The notes under the pieces are model-generated. The model ran no database searches. It was not told the DNA's origin and saw nothing but the letters and a program-made list of their open reading frames with translations. Positions 1-20,066 of a stretch of 20,066 bases of DNA are shown here, in pieces. How positions within the stretch are numbered: position 1 is the first letter of the stretch; each line of letters opens with the position of its first letter. Location of the stretch: positions 1 through 20,066 of IMG/VR virus record IMGVR_UViG_3300020392_000104; one strand, given 5' to 3'. This DNA comes from a virus. The translations under genes and the position numbers were made by a program.

Positions 1-2343
1 TAACACATCAAAAGCATAGCTAGGTGCAGTATTATTAATTCCTACTTTTCCAGCATCTATAATTGTGTTATCTTTTTCTACACTTAATACTCCAACTCCA
101 ACAGTATCCTGATTATCATTTAGTTGTGAAACACCAATTTCTAATCTACCTCCTTTATCTTGATCACTATGGGGTTCATTAGCATAAGCCGCTATGTAAA
201 CTGAAGATTCAGTTACACTACTAGGAACATTACCATCACGCGCATCAAAACCAATACCTCCTAAATATTCACCAGATGAAATACTAGTATCATCTTTAAT
301 GATCATTAAACCGTCGTTCCCATCTGTTCCATCATGCCAAATATTAAGTACATTAGGGGTTGTAGATGCTCTATCTCCTACTCCTACTCTAGATGTACTT
401 CCTTCAAAATAAAAACTAGGGTCTGTTTTTGAATTACCGAAGATTTGAAAATCTACATCATTACCATCGGGATTAATTGATACCTTTCGTGCAGTGCTTA
501 CTTCATGTAATGCTAAATGAGTTACACTACCTACTTTAAATACGTGACCTAAATTAGTGTTATCATAATCTTTAGTTACATATTCTATATTTTTATAATC
601 TGCGGCAGTTGATCCACCAATAATAAGTTTATCAGCACCACCAATACCAGATCTACTAAGAGAAGCTGTTTCTGCTAATTTTAATACATTTGTTGAGTCA
701 GCTACAAGACCAAAGCTAGGATTTGAAACTTCACTTAAGGCTAAATCAAATGTAGATGTACCGGTTAATCCAGTACCTGCTGTAGGAATTGTGTCATCAA
801 CATCACTAGGACTAAGATTACTACATTTTAAATTACCATCACTAGTAACTGTTACTATATTAAGGCTATTGTTACCCGCGTCTGCTGTGACTAAATCAAC
901 AAACTGAGCTGAAGATGCTGTTATATTTCCTGAAGAGGATATATGGCCATTTTGGTCTACTGAAAATATTTGGGTAGCCGTATCAGGGTTTGCGGAACCA
1001 TGTTTAATTCTAAAGTGACCTGAAGTGTCATTAACATTAGTATCTAATAAAACATCTACACCATGTATAGAAGCTAACGTAACAAAATTAGTATTAGCTC
1101 TATCATCATCTAGATTAATATAACTGTGTGTAGGGGCAGCAGAACTAGATATTAAATTTGTAGTTAAGCTCGATCCAATAATAGCACCACTTGCACTTAT
1201 ACCCGAACCCGTTATACTCCCACTAGTGAAAATACTACCACTATCTTGAACTACAACAATTGGCCTAGCTGTAGTAGCAGTAGTTCCATCACTAAAAATC
1301 GTAAATTTATCACCAGAAGTATTATTATTACCATCTATATAGACATTTATATCTGATGGAGATGACATTTCTATATCTCCTTCAATATCTACAAAGGCAA
1401 AATTATTATTACTATCTTTTATTTTATGATTGGATATTGATAAACCGTCTATAGAAGCTGTAGTTGCTACTGTTAATAAAGAACTTGTAACTCCATTAGC
1501 TATAACATTTTTACTAGAACTTATATTACCCGAGGCTGTTATATGGCCTCCTTGGCTTATTGAAAATAATCTAGTACTAGAAAAAGGACTGGTATTACCA
1601 TGGCTAATTCTAAATTCACCAGTTGTATCAGTGTTATTACTATCTATTATTAAATCTACACTATTTACGGAAGCTAATGTAACACTATTATTCCCTTCAG
1701 CTCTATCATCATCTAAATTTAAGTAGTTAGGAGTACCGGCACTAATTTGAGAGGGAGAAGAGCTAGATATAATATTAGTAAGTAAAATAGGAACTTTAGT
1801 TGTAACTGAGGAAGATATAATAGAACCACTTATAGTTAATTTAGGGATTCCTAAATCAGTATCTTGATCATCAGCTGTATAAAATTCTAATTTAGCTCCT
1901 TTTGTATTAGCATCAAAATTTTGTACTGCTACAGCCTGTATTGTAGCTGAGGGGCCTTGTATAACAGCAGATCCAGTACCTATAAAATTTAAATTACCTA
2001 GCGTATTACCGCTACTAATGCCCCCATCTCTACCTATATTAATAGATCCTTCTTCAGAAGCAGATATTATTAACTCGGTATTTACTTCATCAAAAAGAAG
2101 ATTATTACTACCACTTAAAAGAAAACTTGAACCCCCATCTGTAGTGTAGGCAAATTGAACTGCCATATCTGGGCCACTAGCCCCACCTCCAAAATCTCCT
2201 CTGCTTGCTGTTTGAAAACGTCCATTACTATCTAAAGTTACTACATCATCAGTAGCACTGCTTTCTCCTGGGAGATTGCTAGCCGTAATATCATAAACGG
2301 AGGCTTTTGAGCCTGATAGTAAGACTTTTTTCCAGTTCGGCAT
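1..2343 (-). CDS. Tail fibre / adhesin paralogue, partial (3' end beyond window)
   Basis: An open frame of 781 codons runs from ATG at 2343 to the left edge without a stop, so the C-terminus is missing. It begins MPNWKKVLLSGSKASV, the same N-terminal signature as the 436-aa and 533-aa fibre genes of this window, which argues for a common attachment domain. The body is rich in Ser, Gly, Thr and Asn, with recurring short strands such as ITGSGISASG, typical of beta-structured phage fibres. Two copies of a segment of about 85 residues (LNLDDDRA ... GHISSSGNI) lie about 600 bases apart. The last visible residues, DAGKVGINNTAPSYAFDVL, resemble the 'VGIGTTSP..KLDV' stretch that in many phage fibres precedes a C-terminal S74-type self-cleaving chaperone; that domain would lie outside the window. 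Probable role: virion appendage binding the host surface. Function is inferred from composition, context and motifs. Confidence 0.72.
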   Translation of the reverse strand, partial: MPNWKKVLLSGSKASVYDITASNLPGESSATDDVVTLDSNGRFQTASRGDFGGGASGPDMAVQFAYTTDGGSSFLLSGSNNLLFDEVNTELIISASEEGSINIGRDGGISSGNTLGNLNFIGTGSAVIQGPSATIQAVAVQNFDANTKGAKLEFYTADDQDTDLGIPKLTISGSIISSSVTTKVPILLTNIISSSSPSQISAGTPNYLNLDDDRAEGNNSVTLASVNSVDLIIDSNNTDTTGEFRISHGNTSPFSSTRLFSISQGGHITASGNISSSKNVIANGVTSSLLTVATTASIDGLSISNHKIKDSNNNFAFVDIEGDIEMSSPSDINVYIDGNNNTSGDKFTIFSDGTTATTARPIVVVQDSGSIFTSGSITGSGISASGAIIGSSLTTNLISSSAAPTHSYINLDDDRANTNFVTLASIHGVDVLLDTNVNDTSGHFRIKHGSANPDTATQIFSVDQNGHISSSGNITASSAQFVDLVTADAGNNSLNIVTVTSDGNLKCSNLSPSDVDDTIPTAGTGLTGTSTFDLALSEVSNPSFGLVADSTNVLKLAETASLSRSGIGGADKLIIGGSTAADYKNIEYVTKDYDNTNLGHVFKVGSVTHLALHEVSTARKVSINPDGNDVDFQIFGNSKTDPSFYFEGSTSRVGVGDRASTTPNVLNIWHDGTDGNDGLMIIKDDTSISSGEYLGGIGFDARDGNVPSSVTESSVYIAAYANEPHSDQDKGGRLEIGVSQLNDNQDTVGVGVLSVEKDNTIIDAGKVGINNTAPSYAFDVL
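913..1161 (-). repeat. Internal fibre repeat, copy 2
   Basis: This is the second copy of the repeat in the partial fibre gene, reading YINLDDDRANTNFVTLAS and ending GHISSSGNITASS. It lacks one codon relative to copy 1. The linker between the copies (about 350 bases) is a different Ser/Gly-rich sequence, so this is a spaced repeat unit and not a perfect tandem. Confidence 0.75.
1513..1773 (-). repeat. Internal fibre repeat, copy 1
   Basis: This is the first of two protein-level repeats inside the partial fibre gene. The shared core runs LDDDRA..N.VTLAS...VD...D.N..DT.G.FRI.HG...P, then F S...GHI..SGNI. At DNA level the copies have diverged, but short blocks remain identical, such as TATCATCATCTA and ATATGGCC. 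The offset between copies is 600-603 bases, the difference being one codon. Boundaries are approximate. Confidence 0.75.
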
Positions 2344-2468
2344 GTTTTTTGTCTATTACGGTTGGTTACGACTTAGTGTCGCCCACTTCCCAGAGGGCCA
2401 ATAATATCCTTATCAATAAATATAATAAATTCTTATTTTAATTGTTATATATACATATTAATTTTAGG
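2344..2468 (-). promoter_or_regulatory. Intergenic leader of the last fibre gene
   Basis: This 125-base gap separates the adhesin stop from the next fibre start. On the minus strand the distal part is very AT-rich and holds a TATTTATT motif (plus-strand 2415-2422). The proximal part is an unusually GC-rich patch that can form two short adjacent hairpins: CGAC/GTCG at 2369-2381 and GCCC/GGGC at 2381-2398. No uridine tract follows, so it does not look like an intrinsic terminator. A promoter plus structured leader is plausible but unproven. Confidence 0.35.
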
Positions 2469-5141
2469 TTAAAGACCATGGGAACCTGAAAAAGCATTAA
2501 ATATGGTTGTTACTTCAGAAGTAGAAAGTTGTTTATTAAAGCTAGCAAAAATACTCATAGAAATAGGTTGGATTTGTGAGGGGGTTTCGGTACTTGATCC
2601 AAGAGCACCTAAATATGCCCCCCTACCTACACCATTAGCAGCATTTGCATTTAAAGAAGCTGAACCTACTAAAGTTGAGTTATAATATAATTTAAATTCA
2701 TCTCCTATATTAGTTCCATCCCATGTTACAGCTAATTGGTGAAAATCTCTTCCCGAAAGAGTTGAACCTTCAGCAAATGTATTAAAATATCTTGGAACTG
2801 ATATTGATACATTTCCCACATTTAATTCAGCATTAATACTACTTACGGCCTCACTACTAAAATTAAAAGTATTTTCATTTAAACCACTTAATGCTTGACC
2901 AAAAATAGTATCATTTTCAGTATTTAAACTGCTTCTTGCTCCCGTTTTTGACCATAATATAAATGAACCCGCCCCAGTACCCTTTAAAGTATTCAAAGGA
3001 TATACCGGGACACGCGTTACGCTATCACCAGTAGATATAACATCAAAGTCTACTGTGTTTCCGTTAGCACTAGTAACTGTATTTGTAATAAAACTCACTG
3101 ATTGAGAAATAGTTGCACTGGTTTGGGTTCCACTAACTATTAATAATTCAGTTCCATTTAGGGGAGAACTGATATCTGTAACTGTATTTGCTAGTTGAGT
3201 AGTAACACCGTCTATTCTTCTTGAAAAGAAGGTTCTTAAATCTCCTAATAAATCAGATCCTAACACATCAATAAATTCATCTACATTATTAATATTAACT
3301 TGAAAAATATGGTATGATTCTTGATCTAAATTATCAGAAGCAGTTACTGCTATTTGTACACCAGCATTAGCATCTATTCTATCATAAAGAGAAGAAGTTT
3401 GTATACTAAAAGTAGCATTATTACCATTAGTTGCATTAGTAGGAGTAAAAATAAAATGATCACTAGATAATCTAGGATCAATACATTGGATTTGGAAATC
3501 TGAACCTGTAGTTATTCTAACGCTTCCTGCGTTTACAGTTCCTATATGAGTAGTATCATCAAAAACTGTTTTATAAGTATTAGATGACAAAGTTGATCCT
3601 ATGTCATTTTCATTGCCCGTTATTGTTTGAGTAACGGCACTCCAAGAAGGAGGTGCATCAATAACTAATACACCTACTGTGTCACCAGCAGTTGCTGTAG
3701 TACCTGCTGGTGAGCATTCGTCCGAAGCTCTTACAGTAGCAAATATTTGTTCATTGCCTTTACTAGCAGTAGTATTAAAATTTAAAGGAAAATTACTTGA
3801 TGTAACTATACGAAATGAAGATGTAATACTATTATTATTTATAAATTCTGTAGTGAAGAAATTGCTATTAAGCCCTTTGGTTCCCGTAGTACTATCACCA
3901 GAAGCAACTTGTATAGTCCCTATTTGACTTAAAGTAATATTATCATCCCCCGGATCAGAAGCACTAGCATAAGTTTTAACAATTAATGATCGTTTACTAT
4001 CAGTATCTATATTTTGTAAAGAAGCAGTAGCTACAGTAGTAGATGCCGACCACACTGGATTTTCATTAGTTATATTTAAGATAATAGAACTACTAGTTTT
4101 AATAGATGTGCCGTCACTAGCTGATATTTCTAATTTATATGGGCTATTTTTTGCTGATAGTTTGTTAGGAAGTAGGGATTGTGATAAATCTAATTGAAAA
4201 TATCTAGCAGAAGCACTTTCATTATTAGCTACTAGATTTGAAGAACTAAATATAAGGTTATCCCCACCTATAGAATGTGTGGTTATAAAAGCATCAAAAC
4301 CCCCATTATAAAGTATTAAAGCTAATGTGTTTTCTCCACCTGACTTTATATCAGTAATATCCATTCTATCCCTATCTTTTATAAAAATTGTAGGAATTAA
4401 ACTAAAATCAGGTGAACTTTCATTACCTAAAGAAAATTCCATTTCACTAATATTATTACTAGGAGTAGTGCTGGAAGAAATGCTTACATTATTTGATTGA
4501 GTAATAATAAAAGGGGATTCTTTAGTATTAGTAATACTTAATTGGTTAAAAATATTATGTTGAGAATTATGATTAGAATCTGAAGGTTTATTTACTCTAG
4601 AAATATAGTCGTGTTGATCTTTAACTTGGATTTCAAATTTATATGTTATATCCTCGTGGATTAAGAAATTAGAAGATGTCTCTATAAAAAATGAAGCTGT
4701 ACCCCCCGGAGAAGCATTATCTGGGAATATAACATTTATATCATTTATACTTATTTCTTGAGTATTATGAGTTCCACTAGACCCAGATACAATAGATTGA
4801 CTTATTAAAGTTAGGGTTAATTCAGCTCCTGTGTTTCGGTCACTGGCACTAAGAAATGTTCTTTCGCTTAATTTAAATGTGCTTCCTACATCAGCTTCAT
4901 TTGCGGAATAGTCTCCATTAATTCCAACCCTAAATGGTCTATATACAAGAAAATCTCCATCAAAAAGAGAAGTTTGAAAATTACCTACGTTTCCCGTAGT
5001 GTTATTAGCTTCTTCCCAAATAGGAGGTACATTAACTTCTACATCAGGACCTTCTACATTTGCTTCAGAACTTGTAATACCTAAAGCAAGTTTTTTTCCA
5101 AAATGGGTTAGGGTTCCTCCTATAGCTTTAACTGTACTCAT
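2469..5141 (-). CDS. Large adhesin with cadherin-like repeats and a C-terminal LamG-like domain
   Basis: 890 residues, low in Cys and rich in Ser, Thr and Asn. About four consecutive cadherin/Ig-like modules can be traced, each opening with a Pro-x-Trp type boundary and closing with a strand such as LEISASDGT or IAVTASDN followed by 'INIxN': roughly residues 38-209, 209-361 (ending NITNENPVW), 361-498 (ending VIDAPPSW) and 498-622 (ending VNINNVDEF). Residues about 715-885 look like a concanavalin A/laminin-G type domain: FILWSKTGA, then HQLAVTWDGTN, FKLYYNSTLVGSASL, and a final helix-like LSTSEVTTIFNAF. Such domains commonly bind sugars or surface proteins, so a receptor-binding appendage is likely. 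Unlike its neighbours it lacks the MxNWKKVLLSGS start. The ATG lies 19 bases after the stop of the 56-aa gene. Domain calls are by eye. Confidence 0.72.
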   Translation of the reverse strand: MSTVKAIGGTLTHFGKKLALGITSSEANVEGPDVEVNVPPIWEEANNTTGNVGNFQTSLFDGDFLVYRPFRVGINGDYSANEADVGSTFKLSERTFLSASDRNTGAELTLTLISQSIVSGSSGTHNTQEISINDINVIFPDNASPGGTASFFIETSSNFLIHEDITYKFEIQVKDQHDYISRVNKPSDSNHNSQHNIFNQLSITNTKESPFIITQSNNVSISSSTTPSNNISEMEFSLGNESSPDFSLIPTIFIKDRDRMDITDIKSGGENTLALILYNGGFDAFITTHSIGGDNLIFSSSNLVANNESASARYFQLDLSQSLLPNKLSAKNSPYKLEISASDGTSIKTSSSIILNITNENPVWSASTTVATASLQNIDTDSKRSLIVKTYASASDPGDDNITLSQIGTIQVASGDSTTGTKGLNSNFFTTEFINNNSITSSFRIVTSSNFPLNFNTTASKGNEQIFATVRASDECSPAGTTATAGDTVGVLVIDAPPSWSAVTQTITGNENDIGSTLSSNTYKTVFDDTTHIGTVNAGSVRITTGSDFQIQCIDPRLSSDHFIFTPTNATNGNNATFSIQTSSLYDRIDANAGVQIAVTASDNLDQESYHIFQVNINNVDEFIDVLGSDLLGDLRTFFSRRIDGVTTQLANTVTDISSPLNGTELLIVSGTQTSATISQSVSFITNTVTSANGNTVDFDVISTGDSVTRVPVYPLNTLKGTGAGSFILWSKTGARSSLNTENDTIFGQALSGLNENTFNFSSEAVSSINAELNVGNVSISVPRYFNTFAEGSTLSGRDFHQLAVTWDGTNIGDEFKLYYNSTLVGSASLNANAANGVGRGAYLGALGSSTETPSQIQPISMSIFASFNKQLSTSEVTTIFNAFSGSHGL

Positions 5142-5153
5142 TAATTATAAATA

Positions 5154-5175
5154 GCTAGGATTATCCTTTCCTAGC
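5154..5175 (-). promoter_or_regulatory. Hairpin over the 56-aa gene stop and the adhesin leader
   Basis: A perfect 7-bp stem (GCTAGGA / TCCTAGC) with an 8-base loop encloses the TAA of the upstream 56-aa gene and ends 12 bases before the adhesin ATG. There is no uridine tract, so a terminator is unlikely. It could affect translation or processing of the junction. Confidence 0.4.
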
Positions 5176-5331
5176 GGCTACTTCAGGAGGAACTGAGATT
5201 TTTTGTAGTTCTTTTTCTAAAGAAGTAATAATATTAGCTACTACAACAGCATCCTTTCCTTGTATGGTAGCATTTTTAGCTGCTACTATTAAAAACGATA
5301 ATTCTTGGGGTCCAAACTTAAAATTTGCCAT
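5161..5331 (-). CDS. Small helical protein of the fibre locus (56 aa)
   Basis: A short frame between the 533-aa fibre and the 890-aa adhesin: ATG at 5331, TAA at 5161-5163. The protein starts MANFKFGPQELSFLIVAAKN and continues with a predicted helix pair (residues about 8-20 and 26-45), ending in a Pro/Arg-rich tail. It fits tightly between its neighbours on the same strand. It resembles the 59-aa protein at 8302-8481: over 30 residues the two align without gaps in their hydrophobic pattern, with matches such as IQGKD versus VQIKN. Similar 50-60-aa helical proteins are common between structural genes in marine phages, but I know of no proven function. It could be a fibre-assembly or small structural accessory; that is a guess from position only. 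Confidence 0.68.
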   Translation of the reverse strand: MANFKFGPQELSFLIVAAKNATIQGKDAVVVANIITSLEKELQKISVPPEVAARKG

Positions 5332-5375
5332 AACTTTTTGTTTTTAGTGTAATGAAAAAAAATTAAATTTCCAAA

Positions 5376-6977
5376 TTAGTCACCACCACCTCCTCCTCCT
5401 TCTCCAGGATCTGAAGTATAAATCCAAACATTACTTTCACCACCAGCGGGGTTCCTATCCCCTTCAATATACCAACTTCCTCTGGTTTCTGTATCAGAAA
5501 ATTGTGGTGAAGATGAGTTTGGGTTTTCATCAGAAGCAGTAAATATTAATGATATTGATTGTATATTGGTTCCTGGTGTACCAGTAGTTGATACTGTTGT
5601 ATCGTCAAAATTTATAGATCCTATTGCATTTCCAATAGGGTTAGTTAAGGCAAATAATCTTTGAACACTACCCGTCACATAAGCTACGGCTGAACCTGAA
5701 TTATTTGTCCCTCTGCTAACTATAATACCACCACCTTTACTAAATAAATCTCCACTACCACTATTTAATGTTAAGAATGCATCACTAGTTTCAAATTGAT
5801 CGGCTTGTAACTGCGTAATATTACTAGAAGAAACTATAGTTAGATTTCCTTTAACAGTAACATTATTTTCAAATGTTACATCACTGTTTGGATTAGTATC
5901 GTTTTCTGATCCCCAAGTTGTAGCTAAATCAAATTCAAATCTAGGATTATTAATAAAAGTAGCACTTAATTCACTATTTGGGGAAGTAGAAGTTAAGCCG
6001 GCATCACTTTGCCTTCTAACGGTTATAATACCATGGCTAATACCCCCTTCCCCTCTAATAGTATTAGTAAATCCTGATATTGAAGGTCCATCAACATCTA
6101 CAGTAATTTCTACACTTTGCGTAACGACTGTAGATCCATCAATATTAATTACACTATGGTTATTATTATTTTGTTGGAAATTTAAACCTGTACCTGCTAC
6201 TGTATTCGCTAAGTGTAAACCGGGATCAGTTCCACTACCGCCAAGTTCATTTACAGCTAATCCTGAGTTAGAAGCAGAATCGATTCTTAAAACACCATTT
6301 TCAAGAACTAATCCATCACCTGCTACAGCTGATGCTAGTTTTAAACCACTACTACCTAAATCAAAAGAAGTATCAGCGTTAGATGATTCATCAAGATCTA
6401 TTGCAAGTTTATGGAACTGATTACTAAATCTTAAACCATGGCCATCTAATGAAGCTGTATTTAATGATAATTCTGCGTTGTCAGCGATGGTTTCTCCTAA
6501 CATAAAGTTAACACCTCCACTAACACCCTGATTAAAGTTGATAATATCAGCTAAGGTACTATCATCGTCAGCATTACCATAATTAGTACCTGGTGCACTA
6601 CCAGTTAATGCTACTGTAAGGTTACTACCATTACTTCCAATAAAAGGAGAAGCGTTAAATCCTAAAGATGTGTTTGAAAGAATATAAAAACCAGCACCAG
6701 CTTTAATTGCTTTATCGGCTGTAGCGCTTACTCCTGTTACACCAGCACCACTACCTGAAAAAGATCCAGAAAAGGTACCAGAAACAAAAGCTAAAGTAGT
6801 AGCATTACTTAATGCAAGGGAAGAAGTAGCTTCAAATGAACCACTAGTGCCAGCTCCAGATCCTGAAGTAGCAAATACTACTTTAGCATTAGTACCTGCA
6901 TCTGGTAAATCACTAATAGTTAGTTCAGCTACTTTAAAGTGGGAACCAGATAATAATACTCTTTTCCAATTAGCCAT
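5376..6977 (-). CDS. Tail fibre paralogue (533 aa)
   Basis: Starts MANWKRVLLSGSHFKVAEL, the signature shared with the 436-aa and the partial fibre genes. Residues 67-83 (SGTFSGSFSGSGAGVTG) match a short 'FSGSFSGdGsgLtG' motif common in phage fibres and seen also in the 436-aa paralogue. Residues about 205-270 contain repeats of the pattern GLxLxxxxxGxGLxxxxGxLxxD. Residues about 373-421 (VTVKGNLTIVSSSNITQLQ ... GGGIIVSRG) correspond to 'nVtVkGnLtV.G' segments that are frequent in long beta-helical fibres. The protein ends in a run of glycines (GEGGGGGGD). No enzymatic motif is seen. It follows the 436-aa gene by only 7 bases and is probably co-translated with it. Likely a virion appendage subunit. 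Confidence 0.75.
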   Translation of the reverse strand: MANWKRVLLSGSHFKVAELTISDLPDAGTNAKVVFATSGSGAGTSGSFEATSSLALSNATTLAFVSGTFSGSFSGSGAGVTGVSATADKAIKAGAGFYILSNTSLGFNASPFIGSNGSNLTVALTGSAPGTNYGNADDDSTLADIINFNQGVSGGVNFMLGETIADNAELSLNTASLDGHGLRFSNQFHKLAIDLDESSNADTSFDLGSSGLKLASAVAGDGLVLENGVLRIDSASNSGLAVNELGGSGTDPGLHLANTVAGTGLNFQQNNNNHSVINIDGSTVVTQSVEITVDVDGPSISGFTNTIRGEGGISHGIITVRRQSDAGLTSTSPNSELSATFINNPRFEFDLATTWGSENDTNPNSDVTFENNVTVKGNLTIVSSSNITQLQADQFETSDAFLTLNSGSGDLFSKGGGIIVSRGTNNSGSAVAYVTGSVQRLFALTNPIGNAIGSINFDDTTVSTTGTPGTNIQSISLIFTASDENPNSSSPQFSDTETRGSWYIEGDRNPAGGESNVWIYTSDPGEGGGGGGD

Positions 6978-6984
6978 AGGTTAT

Positions 6985-8295
6985 TTATGCGTATATGTAA
7001 GTTGAACTTTCGTTGGTAGCAGCAGCCGTAGTAATCATTATTTGACCAATTCTAGAGTTTGAATCAGTACCAAATTGACCATTTCCACCAATAAATGTTG
7101 ATTCCACACTACCAGTAACTTGTACTACTGCAATCATAGAGGTATTAGCTGTAGTACCCGCAGTAAATGCAGTAGTATTTTTAGCTATTTCTGTTGATAC
7201 CCCCCATCTGTTTTTAGTATTATCATAGAAGAAAAAGGCACCATTAGCATCTGTTGTACTAACAATAAAACCACCATCGTTAGCAGAACCACTATTTACA
7301 AGTATAAATTGGTCAGCGATATTTAAGTTTTGGGTTTCAAGATTAACTGTATTAGAGTTACCTTCTACTACAAAATCACCTTTAACAGTTAAATCGTCAT
7401 TAAAAGTAAAGTTACCCGTAAGTGTATCACTTACGTTAAGTTCTAAATGAGGATTACCTATAAGTGTCGTAGAAGATCCTGAACCCGCATTTGTAACTGT
7501 AGTATCCGATTTTAGGTTTATTGTAATATTATTAGATCCGGTTGTAAATTCAATAGTATTACCACTATCAACTACAACAGTTGAATCTATTTGTAATGCA
7601 CTATATTGGGTACCCCATTCTAAACCAGTACCTGGTAAACTACCTGTAAGGCGTAATTTAGCTGAATCTATTTTTAAACCACCTTGGTTGGCTAGATCAA
7701 CTTGTAAAATACCACTACCTAAAGATAAACCGTTGCCATCTATGTTATCACTAAGAGCTAAACCACTAGATCCTGTTTTTAAACCTGAGGTGCCATTAGA
7801 AGTACCATCTAAATCTATTTGTAATTTATTATATTGGGATTGCCAATCTAAGCCATCACCTGGTAATGAAGATGTTATACCTAAAGTAAAATCATCAGTA
7901 CCTGCACCTGTTGCTGTACCCGCATCTGTGGACCCATTATAGAAGGTTAAACCCCCATTAGGTGATAAATCCAAAGAAGCAGTAGCAATAGCACTACCAT
8001 CATAACTAAAGCCTTTAACACCCGCACCATCTACTAATGCAAAACCTAATTCACCAGTAACACCCGTAAGTTCAGAACCATCACCTGAAAAACTACCACT
8101 AAAAGTACCGCCTTCAAATTGTAGTTCATTACCTGTACTACTATATGTGAGGGTAGATAATTTTTCTATTTGACCACTGGTGTTATCAGCAAATAATACA
8201 TTTGAGTTATTTGAAACATCAGGTAAAATAGATGCTGTTACTTGTGATACGTGGGCATTAGATCCAGATAATAGTATTTTTCTAAACTGTGCCAT
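6985..8295 (-). CDS. Tail fibre paralogue (436 aa)
   Basis: Starts MAQFRKILLSGSNAHVSQV, aligning without gaps over 26 residues with the starts of the 533-aa and partial fibres. Residues 62-80 carry GGTFSGSFSGDGSELTG. Residues 143-160 (SLPGDGLDWQSQYNKLQI) and 219-236 (SLPGTGLEWGTQYSALQI) are an internal repeat. Residues about 302-346 (LTVKGDFVVEGNSNTVNLE ... GGFIVS) match the equivalent segment of the 533-aa protein. The C-terminus (about 380-436) is short and unlike that of the paralogue, so the tips differ while shaft and base are shared. This is what one expects for appendages specialised for different ligands. The ATG lies 6 bases after the stop of the 59-aa gene. Confidence 0.75.
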   Translation of the reverse strand: MAQFRKILLSGSNAHVSQVTASILPDVSNNSNVLFADNTSGQIEKLSTLTYSSTGNELQFEGGTFSGSFSGDGSELTGVTGELGFALVDGAGVKGFSYDGSAIATASLDLSPNGGLTFYNGSTDAGTATGAGTDDFTLGITSSLPGDGLDWQSQYNKLQIDLDGTSNGTSGLKTGSSGLALSDNIDGNGLSLGSGILQVDLANQGGLKIDSAKLRLTGSLPGTGLEWGTQYSALQIDSTVVVDSGNTIEFTTGSNNITINLKSDTTVTNAGSGSSTTLIGNPHLELNVSDTLTGNFTFNDDLTVKGDFVVEGNSNTVNLETQNLNIADQFILVNSGSANDGGFIVSTTDANGAFFFYDNTKNRWGVSTEIAKNTTAFTAGTTANTSMIAVVQVTGSVESTFIGGNGQFGTDSNSRIGQIMITTAAATNESSTYIYA

Positions 8296-13225: not shown

Positions 13226-14917
13226 TTACACTAAGTCAAGATCAGCACAAATCACTTTACCATAGAAGTCTGGGCGAACCATCTTCTTAGCGTAGCGAGT
13301 CATGATACCTTTTCTTGGTGTGAACGATACGGGATCGTATACAAGAGGAGTCATAATTAACGGAATATATGGAGCAAACACAGCACCTGTTTCAAGGAAC
13401 TGGTTACCCTTATAACCCATAAGAATTGTATTTTCTTGCATGTATGGGTTCTTATAGACAGTGTATCTAGAGTTGATAGCACCTATCTTTTGAACACCCA
13501 TAGCGTACTTGTTAGAATCACCAGGTGAGTCAGCAGCGAATCCAGGAATTGATTCAAGGATTGTGCTTATCTTAGGGGATACTACCATAAAGTTAGCACC
13601 ACCACGAAGAGTTTTCTGGTGAATAGTATTACTAACAGACTGAAGCTTAATACCTAAGGTTTGGAACCAAGACATCTTAGTGTAGTACTGGTTAGTATTG
13701 GTATCATCAAATGCAGTAGCGGTAGTAGTACCTGTATCGGCTACTTCACGGCCAACTTTAGCACTCCATCTCTTAGTAGTATCAGCATTTCTGATAAGCA
13801 TATCAAGGAGTTCGAGGTCGATTTCCATCGAGATGTACTCAGAAAGAATAGACGTTAATTCTGCCTCAGCATCAATGCTATGGTAAGCATTTAAGTCCTG
13901 AGCGAATTCTGGTGTCCATTGAGCCTTTAACTTACGAGTTTTCGCAGTAACAGTATCACTGTTAAGCTTAACATCGATTGCAGGGATATCTAAGCTACCA
14001 ATTCCATCGAAATCAGTTTCTTCGAAATCACCTCTATCGTCAAGGTTATCTGGGCCTTTCTGGTACTCTACAGTAATGTTACCTAAGCTAGCAGCAGCAG
14101 TTGTTTTTTCAATTACAAATTCAACATCAGTACCATTAACTCTAGTAAATTCAGGGTAGAAAGCACTAATGTTTGAACTAGCTACTGTAAATGCTCTAAC
14201 ACCTTCTAAATCACACTCTGATAAAAGACCATTAGCGGAAGTTGAACCGTGAGGTACCTTAAGAGTAACAATTGTATGCTCTGTACCACCAAATGTTTCA
14301 GAAGCATCACGTCTTGAGGCTGAGAATTCAGTGTTGAAATTTAAAATACCACCGTATTCAGCTGAAGCTGTTTCAACGCCAGAAATGGATTCGTCAAATT
14401 GTGAAGAAGTTTCGTTGATTGAGTAACCGAAACGACCTGCACCATATAAACCACTGTTTTGGCCTACACCTGGTAATTGGGTTTCTTTAAGAGTAGTAGA
14501 ATCTACAGCGTAAAGTGAATCACCAGCGCTAAATCCAGGCTGTGTATCACCAGTGTTTGTTCCGTATTGGAAATCTAAGTAGAAAATGAGACCTGAGGGG
14601 AGGTTCATTGGTTGTACTGAAAGGAGATCCTTAGCAACGATTTCACCAAATACTCTTCTAACAAGTGGAAGAGCAACACCAGCCCAAGCTTCTGAACCAC
14701 CAGCAGAGATAGTAGTACCAGTACCTGTGGTATTAACCTCATTTACTAATTGTCTGGCTTGGTTCTCAAGGAGAACTGCCATATTTGCTTTTTCGCTCTC
14801 GTGGCCATTAAGACCTTCTAAGAGACCGGATTTTTCCCATTTGCCAGCCAACTTAGCAGCTTCATTCTGCTGATGTTGGAGTGGGGAAGCACCCTCTAAT
14901 AATGTATTAACATTCAT
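13226..14917 (-). CDS. 23: Major capsid protein, T4 gp23 family
   Basis: 563 residues (T4 gp23 has 521). An N-terminal propeptide of about 60 residues (LLEGASPLQHQQNEAAKLA ... NMAVLLENQARQLVNE) leads to a probable gp21 cleavage site after Glu60; the next residues are VNTTGTGTTISAGGSEAWAG. Family signatures follow: LPLVRRVFGEIVAKDLLSVQ and PMNLPSGLIFYLDFQYG (about residues 84-120). Further on are KARKLKAQW-like TRKLKAQWTPEFAQDLNAY and the conserved end PRKGIMTRYAKKMVRPDFY. The protein builds the hexamers of the HK97-type head shell after scaffold-directed assembly and maturation cleavage. It lies 12 bases behind the scaffold gene and ends at a strong terminator. Codon use has more C and G in third position than the fibre genes, as expected for the most abundant virion protein. 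Confidence 0.96.
   Translation of the reverse strand: MNVNTLLEGASPLQHQQNEAAKLAGKWEKSGLLEGLNGHESEKANMAVLLENQARQLVNEVNTTGTGTTISAGGSEAWAGVALPLVRRVFGEIVAKDLLSVQPMNLPSGLIFYLDFQYGTNTGDTQPGFSAGDSLYAVDSTTLKETQLPGVGQNSGLYGAGRFGYSINETSSQFDESISGVETASAEYGGILNFNTEFSASRRDASETFGGTEHTIVTLKVPHGSTSANGLLSECDLEGVRAFTVASSNISAFYPEFTRVNGTDVEFVIEKTTAAASLGNITVEYQKGPDNLDDRGDFEETDFDGIGSLDIPAIDVKLNSDTVTAKTRKLKAQWTPEFAQDLNAYHSIDAEAELTSILSEYISMEIDLELLDMLIRNADTTKRWSAKVGREVADTGTTTATAFDDTNTNQYYTKMSWFQTLGIKLQSVSNTIHQKTLRGGANFMVVSPKISTILESIPGFAADSPGDSNKYAMGVQKIGAINSRYTVYKNPYMQENTILMGYKGNQFLETGAVFAPYIPLIMTPLVYDPVSFTPRKGIMTRYAKKMVRPDFYGKVICADLDLV
14684..14740 (-). other. gp23 processing junction with shared NTTGTGTTIS motif
   Basis: Residues 60-78 of gp23 (E/VNTTGTGTTISAGGSEAW) sit where T4-type prohead protease removes the propeptide. 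The same sequence, with small changes, occurs in the 62-aa protein at 17375-17431. The codons differ at many third positions, so the likeness is at protein level. Confidence 0.7.
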
Positions 14918-14929
14918 TTGTTCTAATTA

Positions 14930-16129
14930 TTATTTATTAATGTTTGCGAGTTTTTGGAATCTTGACACTGTCTCGTCAACTGATTCCGTTATAACCTTAT
15001 TAGGAGCAGTTCCAGCAGCTTTAGAAGCACGTCCTAAACCTTCTTTAATTGCTCTTTTTTCTACACCTGTAAAGTTAAATGATTCTTGAAGTGTTTCAAA
15101 TACCAACTTAGCTTCACCTGTTGTAGTAGATTTGTCTAATGCATCAATTACTTTAACCTTTTGGGCTTCGGTAAGTGCATTAGCTCTAAATAGTTTGTTG
15201 CAGTAGAGGAGTTTACTGTTAAGAAGATTCATTTCAGAGATGGTTTCTTTAAGAGAAGCAACGGTAGCGAGGGCTTCTTCAAGGTCTTTTTCGGCCTTTT
15301 TCTTACCCTCTTTCATGTCATCATCATCTTTTTTCTTACCCTCTTTCATGTCATCATCGTCTTTCTTTTTACCTTCTTCGATTTCAGACTCGATTTCAGC
15401 AATTAAAGCATCAATGTCGATGTTTTCATCAAGATCTTCTATACCTTCACTTCTACGGGCAGCGCCAGCACCGCTAGCCGCGCCTTCTAAAGCTTTGTAA
15501 AGTTTTTCCATCTTAGATCCAGACTCAAGTTTACCTTCACGTCCTTTCTTTAAGAGAGCCTCAATACCACCAGCGGCAGCAGCAATGCTAGCAACGACAC
15601 CAAGACCTACCATTTCATCAAGTTGTTCACCTTCTTTCATGTCTTCGTCTTTTTCATCGTCCTTGCCTTCTTTCATGTCTTCATCGGCTTCATCTTTTTT
15701 GCCTTCTTTCATGTCTTCATCGGCTTCATCTTTTTTGCCTTCTTTCATGTCTTCATCAGCATCTTCGTCATAAGACATTTCTTCTAATTCAGCCATAAGT
15801 TCATCAAGATTGATTTCTTCATCTTCTTCAAGATCAAATTCTTCCTTCATGTCCTCATCAGCATCCTCATCATAAGAACCTTCTTTCATGTCTTCATCTT
15901 TTTCATCCTCCATGTAAGACATTTCTTTCATATCTTCATCTTTTTCGTCTTCCATGTAGGTTTCTTCGAGTTCAACATCCTCTTCTAACTCTTCAGCTAA
16001 TTTAGCTGAAAGCATGTTTTTAATTTTAGAGTCGAATGCTTCTTCTAATGCCATTTTAGCATTTTGTAAAGCAACTTCTCTAACAGCTTTTGCGTCAGCA
16101 ATAGCTTCTTTTAGTAATTCTTTAGCCAT
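14930..16129 (-). CDS. 22: Prohead scaffold protein, gp22-like, with acidic tandem repeats
   Basis: 399 residues (T4 gp22 has 269). The N-terminal helix MAKELLKEAIADAKAVREV and C-terminal helices ending in SVDETVSRFQKLANI are typical of the scaffold family; the order protease-scaffold-capsid supports it. Residues 56-167 hold seven copies of an acidic unit around DEDMKEG, and 251-276 hold two more (KKDDDDMKEGKK). Between them, residues about 173-226 (MVGLGVVASIAAAAGGIEA, then KKGREGKLESG) are non-acidic and Ala/Gly-rich, an unusual insertion. Several LxE or IxE sequences (for example LDE, LEE and IEE) could be cut by gp21, which in T4 degrades the scaffold to small peptides so DNA can enter. 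The extra length over T4 is largely explained by the repeats and the insertion. Confidence 0.87.
   Translation of the reverse strand: MAKELLKEAIADAKAVREVALQNAKMALEEAFDSKIKNMLSAKLAEELEEDVELEETYMEDEKDEDMKEMSYMEDEKDEDMKEGSYDEDADEDMKEEFDLEEDEEINLDELMAELEEMSYDEDADEDMKEGKKDEADEDMKEGKKDEADEDMKEGKDDEKDEDMKEGEQLDEMVGLGVVASIAAAAGGIEALLKKGREGKLESGSKMEKLYKALEGAASGAGAARRSEGIEDLDENIDIDALIAEIESEIEEGKKKDDDDMKEGKKKDDDDMKEGKKKAEKDLEEALATVASLKETISEMNLLNSKLLYCNKLFRANALTEAQKVKVIDALDKSTTTGEAKLVFETLQESFNFTGVEKRAIKEGLGRASKAAGTAPNKVITESVDETVSRFQKLANINK
15302..15379 (-). repeat. Second acidic repeat block (KKKDDDDMKEG x2)
   Basis: Two almost identical units of 12 residues (about 36 bases each) in the same scaffold gene, related to the main block but with a lysine run and four Asp. 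Plus-strand TACCCTCTTTCATGTCATCA recurs. Confidence 0.82.
15629..15964 (-). repeat. Acidic DEDMKEG tandem repeat block of the scaffold gene
   Basis: Seven degenerate units of 11-21 residues, each containing DMKE preceded by D/E/A/K residues. The last three, (KK)DEADEDMKEG, are almost identical also in DNA (plus-strand TTCTTTCATGTCTTCATCGG recurs), which points to recent slippage or unequal exchange. Confidence 0.85.
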
Positions 16130-16270
16130 TTTATTTTTAATTTTTAGGTGGCTTCCAGTAAGTTATGTACGGGAAATAGAGATTTTAGTATCTCTAATAG
16201 GGATTTATTTTTAAAATCCAGGGACACTATTTTAATATAGTGTATGCTTCCAAAATAAATATTAAATAAA
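16130..16270 (-). promoter_or_regulatory. Structured leader of the scaffold/capsid transcript
   Basis: The gap between the divergent starts holds three successive short hairpins: TAGAGAT/ATCTCTA (16177-16196), GGATTT/AAATCC (16201-16219) and CACTAT/ATAGTG (16225-16242). Each has a 6-7-base loop, and C-rich linkers (read on the minus strand) separate them. A TATTTATT motif (16254-16261) lies just upstream of them in the gp22 direction. None is followed by a T tract. They would be in the 5' leader if transcription starts near the motif. Confidence 0.4.
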
Positions 16271-16302
16271 TTTGGAAACCAAAAAATTTTTTCGTATCTT
16301 TC
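16271..16302 (+). promoter_or_regulatory. Bacteroidetes-type promoter for the plus-strand gene
   Basis: TTTG at 16271-16274 and TATCTTTC at 16295-16302 are separated by 20 bases. The consensus for the main sigma factor of Bacteroidetes is TTTG (-33) and TAnnTTTG (-7) with about 17-23 bases between them, so only the last base of the -7 box differs. The AAAAAATTTTTT between the boxes is also typical. The start at 16320 leaves a leader of about 10 bases. Confidence 0.75.
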
Positions 16303-16319
16303 GGGAAAACAGTTATATT

Positions 16320-16553
16320 ATGAATCCATTAGAATTATTGGCCGTAGCATTTATTGAAGATATCACTAATCTCCAAACAGTATGTACATACTTTTTAATT
16401 GGGGTTATAGTAGCAGCTTTACTTGAAAGAGCTATTGAAAACGCTGGATACCCTATGGAGTGGTCAGACAGATTTTGGGTTGTATTAGGATGGCCTTTAG
16501 CTTCGGCTATCTTTATTTACCACTTTATTAAAGGATTTTTAGATAAAGATTAA
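16320..16553 (+). CDS. Small two-helix membrane protein, antisense within the capsid operon (77 aa)
   Basis: The only plus-strand gene in the window. It starts MNPLELLAVAFIEDI and has two hydrophobic segments, about residues 19-36 (QTVCTYFLIGVIVAALLE) and 52-72 (FWVVLGWPLASAIFIYHFI), joined by a polar loop with RAIENAGYPMEWSD. It ends in KGFLDKD. There is no signal peptidase site. A TTG start at 16272 would put the coding start inside the promoter and is rejected. The stop shares the four bases TTAA with the gp21 stop on the opposite strand. With a host-type promoter it is probably made early, unlike its late neighbours. Size and topology resemble phage membrane proteins such as the T4 superinfection-immunity protein Imm or small holins, but I see no sequence match and give no function. 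Confidence 0.78.
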   Translation: MNPLELLAVAFIEDITNLQTVCTYFLIGVIVAALLERAIENAGYPMEWSDRFWVVLGWPLASAIFIYHFIKGFLDKD

Positions 16554-17155
16554 CACTTACACATACCCGTGTTATCACAAATGATATCACGAATAATATT
16601 GTGTACTTTAGTGTAATCTTTAGTGGGGGTACTTACTCCTTCATTCATAGGAGACATATATGCACCAGGGGTTGAAGGTGTTGATACAAAATCAAAACAT
16701 AAAAGATCAAAATCTTCCTGTACCATTAATACTCCATCTGCGTTTTCTTCTACTGAACCCATTCCTCTAGAAGATATTCCTACTGTAACACCACAGCGGA
16801 ATAATTCTTTAAGGATATTACCCGCGGGTGTTGTTAATATTTCTACAACGCCATGTACATCGCCACCTTTCATAGTAACTTCTACTATATTATGGGATAC
16901 ATTATTTAAATTAATGACAGAAGAGTCTGGGTGATCTAATTCACCTAAGGCTCTTTTTTCTCTAACGGGACCATCAATATATTTTTTAATTTCTCTTTCA
17001 AGAATTTTTTGCTCATAGATTCTACCATTATGGTTTTTAACACCAGCTCTTTGGATAATACCACCTACTCTAAGTGGTTTATTTTCTTTAATAGATTGCT
17101 CAACTAAAAGCTTATCTACTTTAAATGGCATATGTTCTATAAGTAATTGTTTCAT
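16550..17155 (-). CDS. 21: Prohead core protease, T4 gp21 family
   Basis: 201 residues (T4 gp21 has 212). It is a serine protease of the T4 prohead-protease/herpes-assemblin type that cleaves head proteins after Glu in (L/I)-x-E sites. Visible landmarks are GGIIQRAGVKNHNGRIYE (31-48), ALGELDHPDSS (69-79) with the presumed catalytic His75, and VTVGISSRGMGSV (123-135) with the nucleophile expected at Ser128 or Ser129, then DFVSTPSTPGAYM. The C-terminal tail ends in CKC. Its ATG overlaps the stop of the 46-aa gene (ATGA), and an AGGA lies a few bases upstream, one of the few plausible ribosome-binding sites here. It acts in the prohead on gp22, gp23 and probably the 62-aa protein, and usually on itself. 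Confidence 0.93.
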   Translation of the reverse strand: MKQLLIEHMPFKVDKLLVEQSIKENKPLRVGGIIQRAGVKNHNGRIYEQKILEREIKKYIDGPVREKRALGELDHPDSSVINLNNVSHNIVEVTMKGGDVHGVVEILTTPAGNILKELFRCGVTVGISSRGMGSVEENADGVLMVQEDFDLLCFDFVSTPSTPGAYMSPMNEGVSTPTKDYTKVHNIIRDIICDNTGMCKC

Positions 17156-17292
17156 CGTCCTTGTCCTCTATTTAATTTTCTATAATTTTTAGAATTTTTA
17201 TGGTTACTATGCTTTGTTTTAGCATGAATACCAGGCCTATTTACCTTATTATCTTTTTTATTAAAGTCAAAAGCGTTAATTTTTCTTGGCAT
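17152..17292 (-). CDS. Small basic protein upstream of gp21 (46 aa)
   Basis: A short frame from ATG at 17292 to TGA at 17152-17154, overlapping the gp21 start as ATGA. The protein starts MPRKINAFDFNKKDNKVN and continues PGIHAKTKHSNHKNSKNYR to RGQGR. It is strongly basic, with Lys, Arg, His and Asn dominating and no acidic cluster. I recall similar 'HAKTK.S..K.SKNYKK.YRGQGR' ends in small proteins of environmental phages, without a known function. The position between portal and protease is where T4 has its small prohead core genes 67 and 68, although T4 gp67 is acidic. A basic internal head or DNA-binding protein is conceivable. The tight coupling supports it as a real gene. Confidence 0.66.
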   Translation of the reverse strand: MPRKINAFDFNKKDNKVNRPGIHAKTKHSNHKNSKNYRKLNRGQGR

Positions 17293-17299
17293 AACTATT

Positions 17300-17488
17300 T
17301 TATTTTACTTCTTTATATCCCATATAACCTCGTTTTTTTTTCCTTTTATTATCCCCAAACGCTCTAGGTGTAGCGTAGGCTTCACTAGAACCAGTACTAA
17401 TAGTAGTACCCGTTCCTGTAGTGTTTATTTCGTCAAGCTCAGTTTTAATAAGCTCACGAATAAGGGTTCTAAGTTCATCTATATTCAT
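17300..17488 (-). CDS. Small putative prohead core protein with gp23-like processing junction (62 aa)
   Basis: The N-terminal helix MNIDELRTLIRELIKTELDE is followed by INTTGTGTTISTGSSEAYA, then TPRAFGDNKRKKKRGYMGY. The stretch after Glu20 matches gp23 residues 61-79, and LDE before it fits the gp21 cleavage consensus (L/I-x-E), so cleavage after Glu20 would release a helix and a basic 42-residue peptide. Its place between portal and protease corresponds to the small core genes 67/68 of T4. The start overlaps the stop of the 281-aa gene (ATGA), showing translational coupling. Short phage proteins of the form 'helix - Gly/Ser/Thr linker - TPxAFG - basic tail' are familiar in marine T4-type genomes, but their role is unproven. 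The internal core or peptide role is inference. Confidence 0.68.
   Translation of the reverse strand: MNIDELRTLIRELIKTELDEINTTGTGTTISTGSSEAYATPRAFGDNKRKKKRGYMGYKEVK
17375..17431 (-). other. Second copy of the NTTGTGTTIS processing-junction motif
   Basis: Residues 20-38 of the 62-aa protein (E/INTTGTGTTISTGSSEAY) correspond to residues 60-78 of gp23. Fourteen of nineteen positions are identical, without gaps. Confidence 0.72.
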
Positions 17489-18330
17489 GAATGCAAAGAT
17501 TTTAATTCATTAATTAGTTCATAGTAATTCAACAAATTAATAACATTATCATCATGGACAGAGGATTTTTTACAGAGAGGTTTAATTAAGTTTTTAATCT
17601 CATTTAACTTAATTTTGGTTATTTGATCTGTTTTTTTAGAATAGGTTTCTAATTCACTTATAACTGTTTTGATTTCTTTATTAATAAATGATTTTAATTT
17701 AGGGTTATTAGAAACATTATAAACGTATTCTTTTAATAAGATTTTTTGGTTAGAATTTAAACCTGAATACTTATCGTTAAATTTTTCCATTAACATTTTA
17801 TAAGTAAGAGCTCTAGTTTCTTTATCAAATTTTTCATACTCTTCCATAACCATTTCTTTTTTAGGTTTATTAGGAAGGTTTTTATTTGTAATGTGTTCAA
17901 GAATAGCAACTTTAGAATCTACTATAGACATAGGGCTAGCAGATTTATTTTCTAATAGATTAAATACACTAGCATATATTTTATAGTTAGGTATTTTTGC
18001 TTTAAAAAAATCTTCAATATTGTATGTATCCTTTATTTCTCTAACTAAATTATACCTTTCTCTTCTTAATACAGATTTGTTTAACTTGCTATGAGCATCT
18101 ACTAAAGTTTCTATAAGTACTGTTGCGTTAGCTTCTTTATTGTATCTTTTAGTAAGTAAAGCATGGTATATTTGGTACTCCTTTAAAAGAGTAGAGTCTT
18201 GTTTAAAAAATTTTTTCAAGATACCTACAGCTTTTGGTGAGGAATTTGAAATAGTTTCAGACGTAATTTGTCTGGTTAATAGTTCAAACAATATCCCCGT
18301 ATTTTTGTACTTGGAGTGCTTAGGTTTCAT
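17485..18330 (-). CDS. Conserved-looking phage protein next to the portal, unknown function (281 aa)
   Basis: The protein starts MKPKHSKYKNTGILFELLTR and is almost entirely helical, rich in Lys, Leu, Asn and Ile, with no membrane segment, signal peptide or catalytic motif. The start ('KYKNTGILFELL.RQItsdt') is one I associate with hypothetical proteins beside the portal gene in marine T4-type phages. The rest has helices such as EYQIYHALLTKRYNKEA and VLIETLVDAHSKLNK, and a C-terminal helix KIKLNEIKNLIKPLCKK. The gene follows the portal by 48 bases, and its stop overlaps the start of the 62-aa gene, so it belongs to the head-assembly operon. A prohead core or assembly-chaperone role is possible from position only. 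Confidence 0.7.
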   Translation of the reverse strand: MKPKHSKYKNTGILFELLTRQITSETISNSSPKAVGILKKFFKQDSTLLKEYQIYHALLTKRYNKEANATVLIETLVDAHSKLNKSVLRRERYNLVREIKDTYNIEDFFKAKIPNYKIYASVFNLLENKSASPMSIVDSKVAILEHITNKNLPNKPKKEMVMEEYEKFDKETRALTYKMLMEKFNDKYSGLNSNQKILLKEYVYNVSNNPKLKSFINKEIKTVISELETYSKKTDQITKIKLNEIKNLIKPLCKKSSVHDDNVINLLNYYELINELKSLHS

Positions 18331-18378: not shown

Positions 18379-20066
18379 TTATTCTTTTATAATATTTTCT
18401 TCATCTAGTAAAGAAGAAGTATTTTTTTCTTTTAATATTTGTTTACCTTTTAATCTTTTTAAAGATAATTTTTTAAGAATTCTAGAATTTTCTTCAAGAG
18501 CAAATGTAGACACATCATTAGTTCTATTTGGGGTATCATCAGCTGTTAGTCCCGCCTTACCTAAGGGATCTCTACCCATATTAGCTTGGTCTGTGCCATA
18601 ACGACTTAATTTTATAGCTGGTCTCCCTGGTTTTTCTTCATCATAACCATCTGGAATATCCCTAATTGTTTTATCTCTTTTAGTAGAATATAAATTAGCT
18701 AAGTCGTGTGGTGTACCATATGATTCTCCTGATTCTATGGGATCATTACCTTCATTTTCTATTTGATTAACACGGAAAATATGTGCGGCATCATCTAATG
18801 AACGGTTTTTTTCATATTCCATTTCTTTATCAGATAAATTAAATACATTTTTATAAATAAAGTCAGTAGATAAAATTTTCTTATCTGTAATAGAATTAGC
18901 TAATTCTACTTTTGCTTTATATAGTTCTGTTTTTTCTTGTTCAAATACAATTGATGGGCCCGTTAATTCTAATTCAAAATCTACTAAATCCGCATCTGTA
19001 AATCCTTGAGTATATAAGTGTACTAATGCAATTTTATGTAATTCAGATACAATGGTTCTTTGTAAACGTTCTATAGTACGAGCAAAACGAATATCCATAG
19101 CAGCTAATGTAGATTTGCCTTCAAGATTTTCATCATATCCTAAGAATGCTTTAGGTATTTTTAAAGCTGCTAACATTCGGTTCTTTAAGTACTCAATATC
19201 AGTTGTACCATCATAATCTAACCCTTTAGTGGTTTCGATTTTAGTTGATGCATCATTACCTCTAACCGGGATATAAAAATCCTCAGTCATGTTTTGTATA
19301 TTAAATTTTAAATTATAATCACCCGATTGTTGGTCTATATATGGCGTTTTTTTCATTCTCGCCACGGTTTTTTCCATAAACTGATCGATTTCTTGAGGAG
19401 GGATTCCACCAACATTCATATAAAAAATTCTTTTCTCGGGTGCCCTCATTATTCTATGAATAAGCATCGCATCTTCCATCAATATAAGTTGCTTAAATAC
19501 TTTACGAGCAGGTTCAAGATATGAACGTCCATAAGGTAAGTAAGCAGCATCAGATAATAATCTAAAGTGAGCTACTTCATAGTTTTCAAGTTTCATTTGG
19601 TCCGATCTTCTAGCACTATAAGTATTAGATTGTGATAAACCATTAGGATCTAAAATAAACTGAACATAGTTTGGATTTTCTGGATTTTGTCCTTCTTCTC
19701 TTACTACTTGGTATACAGAAAGTGGTAAAACATTATAAACACCAAATTTTTCAGAAATTTGAAGATGTAAATAAAAATCACCATATTTACACATCTGTCG
19801 AACCCAAGAAGGTAAATTAAATTCTATATTTAGTACATCATAAAATAAATTATGAAGTACTCTTTTAACATTTTCATTAGATGACTTAATTGTTAATACA
19901 TCTCCGTATTCATTTTTAAGAGTTGCTTCTTCAGAAATTATATCAAGTGCAGGAGCAATTAATGAATCATAATCCATCGCTTCATAATCACTATACAATT
20001 GAAGTCGCATAGACGCATAATTAAGTGTAGGGTTATACTGTAGTGAAGATCCTACAGGTCTATGTA
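18379..20066 (-). CDS. 20: Portal protein, T4 gp20 family, partial (5' end beyond window)
   Basis: The frame is open to the right edge: 18 further codons (HRPVGSSLQYNPTLNYAS) precede the first in-window Met at 20008-20010, so that Met is not the start. About 561 residues are visible; T4 gp20 has 524. Conserved portal features include the YSDYEAMDYDSLIAPALDI start, SEEATLKNEYGDVLTI, PSWVRQMCKYGDFYLHL, and STLAAMDIRFARTIERLQR with the preceding IPKAFLGYDENLEGK. MRAPEKRIFYMNVGGIPPQ is the other strong signature. The protein forms the dodecameric ring at one head vertex: it starts prohead assembly and is the DNA channel and docking site for terminase and neck. The Lys-rich C-terminal tail (KKLSLKRLKGKQILKEK) is longer than expected. 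The gene is the first visible one of the capsid operon. Confidence 0.94.
   Translation of the reverse strand, partial: HRPVGSSLQYNPTLNYASMRLQLYSDYEAMDYDSLIAPALDIISEEATLKNEYGDVLTIKSSNENVKRVLHNLFYDVLNIEFNLPSWVRQMCKYGDFYLHLQISEKFGVYNVLPLSVYQVVREEGQNPENPNYVQFILDPNGLSQSNTYSARRSDQMKLENYEVAHFRLLSDAAYLPYGRSYLEPARKVFKQLILMEDAMLIHRIMRAPEKRIFYMNVGGIPPQEIDQFMEKTVARMKKTPYIDQQSGDYNLKFNIQNMTEDFYIPVRGNDASTKIETTKGLDYDGTTDIEYLKNRMLAALKIPKAFLGYDENLEGKSTLAAMDIRFARTIERLQRTIVSELHKIALVHLYTQGFTDADLVDFELELTGPSIVFEQEKTELYKAKVELANSITDKKILSTDFIYKNVFNLSDKEMEYEKNRSLDDAAHIFRVNQIENEGNDPIESGESYGTPHDLANLYSTKRDKTIRDIPDGYDEEKPGRPAIKLSRYGTDQANMGRDPLGKAGLTADDTPNRTNDVSTFALEENSRILKKLSLKRLKGKQILKEKNTSSLLDEENIIKE

Follow-up and report, generated by a model that had tools for sequence, protein, structure and literature searches.

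In an uncultured marine phage of the T4 type, a 62-aa protein of the head module carries, directly after a predicted cleavage site of the prohead protease gp21, almost the same sequence that the major capsid protein gp23 carries after its own predicted site. This near-copy of about the first 18 residues of processed gp23 recurs in small head proteins across a large uncultured group of the T4 type. The joint change of both motifs in many lineages suggests that the small protein may occupy the same shell pockets. Our main reading, to which we give about an even chance (roughly 0.5), is that the processed small protein is a mimic of the gp23 N-fist, which would be released by gp21 and would dock into the shell at N-fist pockets.

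A marine Far-T4-type head module

The window, the whole stretch of DNA that we analysed (a 20-kb IMG/VR record of 20,066 nucleotides), is a marine Far-T4-type head module. The T4-type head genes are encoded on the minus strand in the order portal, 281-aa protein, 62-aa protein, 46-aa ORF, gp21, gp22-type scaffold, gp23 and PhoH. Matches to PF07068 (E=3e-78), PF03420 (E=1.5e-29) and phrog_213 reveal the order 20-21-22-23 of Far-T4 and T4-type phages, which is kept in essentially all loci that we compared. The nearest cultured relatives of gp23 are found in Flavobacterium phage immuto (55%) and Microcystis phage Mel-JY01 (52%), and a more distant one (36%) in Rhodothermus phage RM378, the reference of the Far-T4 group (PMC4360716). 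The genes of the module are:

18379..20064, minus strand: portal protein gp20 (phrog_213), with its 5' end cut by the window
17485..18330, minus strand: conserved 281-aa neighbour of the portal gene (synteny)
17300..17488, minus strand: 62-aa small head-module protein, with a start that overlaps the upstream gene's stop
16550..17155, minus strand: gp21 prohead protease (PF03420 Peptidase_S77, phrog_207)
14930..16129, minus strand: gp22-type scaffold (named for its position), with acidic repeats
13226..14917, minus strand: major capsid protein gp23 (PF07068, phrog_138)

The protein in the gp22 slot has no match in Pfam or PHROGs; it contains repeated DEDMKEG-type acidic/basic units and differs from T4 gp22. 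The 281-aa protein, encoded right after the portal and kept in syntenic relatives, also has no Pfam or PHROG match and is a candidate core or portal-associated protein.

The small protein and its family

The 62-aa ORF is a real gene, with 18 synonymous and 7 nonsynonymous codon changes against its relative L009. Searching IMG/VR viral contigs with the small protein, gp23 and gp21 yielded several hundred loci, and 97 distinct gp23/small-protein pairs constitute our sample. Synteny is conserved across the loci: the portal gene is followed by the 281-aa gene and the small gene, then sometimes by other ORFs, and then by gp21, gp22 and gp23; in L022 and L023, an insertion of about 2.6 kb separates the module gene from gp21. 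The length of the small protein varies from ~50 to >300 aa, because unrelated N- and C-terminal extensions come and go around a constant core, which leads from hydrophobic-x-E and x[SN]x[TS]G through a stretch rich in Gly to Y-x-[TS]-P-x-A-F and a region of basic residues. The parts of the small protein and the corresponding stretch of gp23 are:

17375..17431, minus strand: residues 20-38 of the 62-aa protein, predicted junction LDE20^I21 and shared motif INTTGTGTTISTGSSEAY
17357..17377, minus strand: YATPRAF, residues 38-44 of the small protein, the most conserved part of the family and present in a single copy per genome
17303..17356, minus strand: basic C-terminal tail GDNKRKKKRGYMGYKEVK, residues 45-62 of the small protein
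14684..14740, minus strand: gp23 residues 60-78, predicted gp21 junction E60^V61 and shared motif VNTTGTGTTISAGGSEAW, matching the start of the T4 N-fist (gp23 66-91)

Short forms of the small protein in immuto and Mel-JY01 make the family wider than the close match to gp23. A weak match of the immuto protein in Vibrio phage 1.070.O was set aside, as its gene context is unrelated. Our literature search found no published description of the small protein. It has no match in PHROGs, Pfam, NCBIfam or PDB; together with hhalign probabilities of 0.05 and 0.04 per cent, these negative searches led us to reject homology to T4 gp67 and gp68. The long records that we searched have one YxTPxAF module per genome (two pattern matches in a single 484-kb record), on which ground we rejected the idea that several cargo proteins are tagged with the module in these records.

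A motif common to gp23 and the small protein

A preliminary description of this DNA had pointed to a likeness between residues 60-78 of gp23 and 20-38 of the 62-aa protein, and the comparison bears it out. The gp23 stretch (codons 14740..14684) reads EVNTTGTGTTISAGGSEAW and that of the small protein (codons 17431..17375) reads EINTTGTGTTISTGSSEAY, with 15 of the 19 positions identical. The best 18-mer identity of the small protein is 15/18 with gp23 and at most 8/18 with the 18 other proteins of the window, and 1000 shuffles of the motif, in which its T/G/S composition was kept, gave a maximum of 11/18 against gp23 and two long proteins. Moreover, when the record was searched in six frames with the small protein, the gp23 site was the sole second match (E=8e-8). 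The two genes are 2.6 kb apart, and strong similarity is confined to this one stretch.

As the description also held, LDE before the junction of the small protein fits the gp21 rule. Residues P3-P1 of gp23 are VNE, which is not the textbook L/I-x-E, and most gp23 proteins of the group (81/97) likewise have V at P3. Glu occupies P1 of both predicted junctions in all 97 pairs, and P3 of the small-protein family is L or I in 73/97 and one of L, I, V and M in 96/97. The pattern x[SN]x[TS]G follows the junction in 64/97 gp23 proteins and 77/97 small proteins, and the glycines at P5', P7' and P13' are near invariant in both motifs. In gp23 of the relatives, E at the equivalent junction is likewise followed by the same kind of sequence.

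Co-variation of the two motifs

When distinct pairs, each taken from a single contig, are compared, the motif of gp23 is more similar to the small-protein motif of its own genome than to those of other genomes, and this is also seen within clades. Our tests of this co-variation rest on gene trees from the same cassette and on motif extraction by regular expressions. Since label permutation ignores descent, we simulated the independent evolution of both motifs on a tree of the gp23 body and gp21; in 27 gap-free pairs the own-genome excess was 1.27 identities (null sd 0.21, p<=0.0005), and the 62-aa-type subclade shows such an excess by itself. At P2' (Asn vs Ser) the motifs agree in 52 of 66 pairs, where 31.7 were expected; by parsimony, this position changed 16 times in one gene and 12 times in the other. 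For phylogenetically independent pairs with a long small-protein motif, 22 contrasts were for and 3 against matching (sign p=8e-5), and on a gp21-only tree 16 were for and 6 against (sign p=0.026).

In a fresh set of 31 pairs, both the P2' agreement (Fisher p=0.004) and the own-genome matching of long motifs (permutation p=1e-4) were replicated, in each case with phylogeny ignored. When the fresh long-motif pairs were tested by themselves as independent pairs, the contrasts were 6 vs 1 on the gp21 tree and 3 vs 3, which is not significant, on the combined tree. Own-genome matching of short motifs was not replicated in the fresh set (p=0.15), and short small-protein motifs (MSTTGAVGGY, TSGAAGAY) beside a long gp23 motif showed no coupling (6 vs 8 contrasts), which indicates that the close match is dispensable in these lineages and not universal. 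The check proposed at the outset, for co-variation across relatives, is thus positive for the long small-protein motif, but several lineages pair a shortened motif with a long gp23 motif, which partly agrees with the outcome that had been named there as a refutation. Overall, motif lengths in gp23 and the small protein were not correlated.

Furthermore, rare insertions are shared within genomes: NSLGASG in L205 and L206, TGGGxGx as TGGGAGS in L119 and L133 and in similar form in L269 and L302, and another in L016. In L005 and L213, SLGASG is present in gp23 alone, so that the coupling is not absolute. Co-variation extends to P8'-P10' and was not detected on the P side (P6-P2); it is confined to the P' side, i.e. 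the part kept on the mature chain.

We also scanned the columns of gp23 and gp21 for coupling to P2', and gp23 residue 315 ranked first for both proteins in the discovery set (z about 8):

13973..13981, minus strand: gp23 residues 313-315 (A-I-D), which showed the strongest coupling to P2' among the body columns of the discovery set and are no more than suggestive

Defined in this way, the coupling of residue 315 was not replicated in the fresh set (p=0.40). As a contact, residue 315 failed validation as stated and is kept as a lead only, with contrasts of 4-0 (Asp) or 5-0 (acidic) among 152 gp23 proteins.

A putative N-fist mimic in the shell

The T4 N-fist comprises gp23 residues 66-91 (PMC9958956, PMC7136217). 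It contacts two subunits of its own capsomer and two of the neighbouring one; in the prohead it is disordered, and expansion brings it into order (PMC9958956). In the five portal-facing subunits it remains disordered (PMC7136217). In our alignment, gp23 residue 74 (query residue 73) corresponds to T4 gp23* residue 21, which places the motif within the first ~25 mature residues. The gp23 motif therefore resembles the N-fist of T4 gp23* (66-91) in being formed by the first ~25 mature residues after the gp21 cut (PMC9958956, PMC7136217), but the sequences of the two are unrelated. A single-chain AlphaFold2 model of gp23, of low confidence (pLDDT 63, residues 63-86 unstructured), was uninformative on the motif and on docking.

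On this background, gp21 would probably cut the 62-aa protein after E20 and release a 42-residue fragment. At its start would stand an N-fist mimic, equivalent to the ~18-25 residues with which mature gp23 begins, and behind it YATPRAF and the basic tail. The mimic would dock on the gp23 surface with which gp23's own N-fist clasps neighbouring capsomers, and the small protein would be present in the virion. Both peptides would answer to the same pocket and hence evolve together. The predicted fragment contains nine K/R residues, and the median net charge of the family is +7 over the 40 residues after the motif; such a K/R-rich tail might face and contact the packaged DNA or help to keep the fragment within the head. 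Of the three readings in the preliminary description, the one in which the assembling shell reads the sequence agrees best with these data.

Likely docking sites might be N-fist pockets that lack a donor, for example around the portal vertex. No gp24 vertex paralogue was found in the relatives' IMG/VR records of 110-190 kb, which are perhaps incomplete and carry one gp23-family (PF07068) protein each (L108, L120, L128, L362, L347, L317, L027, L028); the vertices may therefore be special. More tentatively, and at less than even odds, we propose that in Far-T4 phages a peptide released by gp21 mimics the N-fist and fills such pockets, e.g. at the vertices or around the portal, so that maturation would employ two interchangeable, co-evolving clasps, an exchangeability that the short-form lineages would have lost.

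Alternative explanations

Instead of the shell, both peptides could bind a third prohead partner, such as the gp22 core, the 281-aa protein or the portal, and co-evolve with it. Co-variation on the P' side would be equally expected in this case, the 281-aa gene always adjoins the small gene, and the N-terminal regions of gp23 are inside the T4 prohead (PMC9958956). However, the propeptide halves face the core as well and do not co-vary, and the segment matches a known shell-shell contact in T4; we consider a common third partner unlikely.

Slightly less probable still is that the shared stretch represents an extended recognition sequence for gp21, as had also been suggested, with the protease reading the P' side of both junctions and co-evolving with it. 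In both proteins the Glu directly before the motif agrees with the gp21 rule, x[SN]x[TS]G after the junction is retained even in short-motif lineages, and certain columns of gp21 are coupled to P4' or P10'. In contrast, the coupling of P2' is weaker with gp21 columns than with gp23 columns, and co-variation as far as P8'-P10' speaks against a protease signal. Furthermore, the P' motif follows none of 2640 [LIVM]-x-E positions, putative sites defined by pattern, in 96 gp22-slot scaffolds, which together with the absence of co-variation at P6-P2 makes a gp21 recognition signal unlikely. T4 gp21 itself needs only L/I-x-E, the sole feature common to its substrates (PMC9026906).

A fragment of gp23 might also have been duplicated into the neighbouring gene and its similarity kept by recombination, with no shared binding function, for which the high similarity in a single stretch of two genes only 2.6 kb apart could be taken as a sign. 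The codons argue otherwise and make this improbable. The two motifs use the same codon at 6 of 14 identical residues, and codon matches at identical residues are no commoner within genomes (0.485) than between genomes (0.479), which agrees with the earlier view that the codons have diverged and the motifs are not a recent copy, and which argues against gene conversion, for which no codon signature was seen. L053 and L133 even have 14-15 residues but only 4 codons in common, and the small-protein family with its short forms extends beyond the close match. Duplication of a capsid fragment into a core protein, as once proposed, may thus be the origin of the motif, but the codons carry no sign of recent copying. 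Finally, two low-complexity Gly/Thr/Ser linkers, of which only flexibility after cleavage is required, could have converged on similar sequences; this would account for the T/G/S-rich composition and the near-invariant glycines, but is the least credible explanation, as shuffled motifs never exceeded 11/18 and the residues and insertions are specific and lineage-matched.

Comparison with known systems

Like the small protein, the T4 prohead core proteins gp67 and gp68 are small and encoded in the slot between portal and gp21, and gp68 also has a basic C-terminus. However, profile similarity is absent (hhalign probability below 0.1%), and the products of T4 genes 67 and 68 lack an N-fist-like sequence. 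The T4 internal proteins with a capsid-targeting sequence are short head proteins cut after L/I-x-E (PMC9958956), as is predicted for the small protein. Their targeting peptide precedes the cut and is lost, whereas the conserved part of the small protein follows the predicted cut and would stay. By analogy, a precedent for two proteins with a common capsid-docking motif is provided by the scaffolding protein of 80alpha and CpmB of SaPI1, which have RIIK in common and use the same docking site on the capsid protein (PMC5644958). The CpmB mimic copies a scaffold and redirects capsid size, while the small protein would copy the N-terminus of the capsid protein of its own genome.

With the small protein, an abundant uncultured group of T4-like phages gains a head gene that had no name before, and a concrete role for it that can be tested. 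Should docking prove right, a second molecule would use the maturation clasp of the capsid protein, which bears on the timing of expansion and on the sealing of donor-less sites such as vertices and portal. Moreover, co-variation of this kind offers a sequence-only route to shell-docking peptides in other phages.

Other features of the window

A very basic 46-aa ORF (17152-17292, minus strand) lies between the small protein and gp21, and gp21 (16550-17155, minus strand) ends in the conserved Cys-rich C-terminal tail of its clade (IICDNTGMCKC). In addition, three proteins encoded within 1-8295 (minus strand) have an N-terminus of the MxxWKKVLLSGSxA type in common and look like fibre or decoration proteins.
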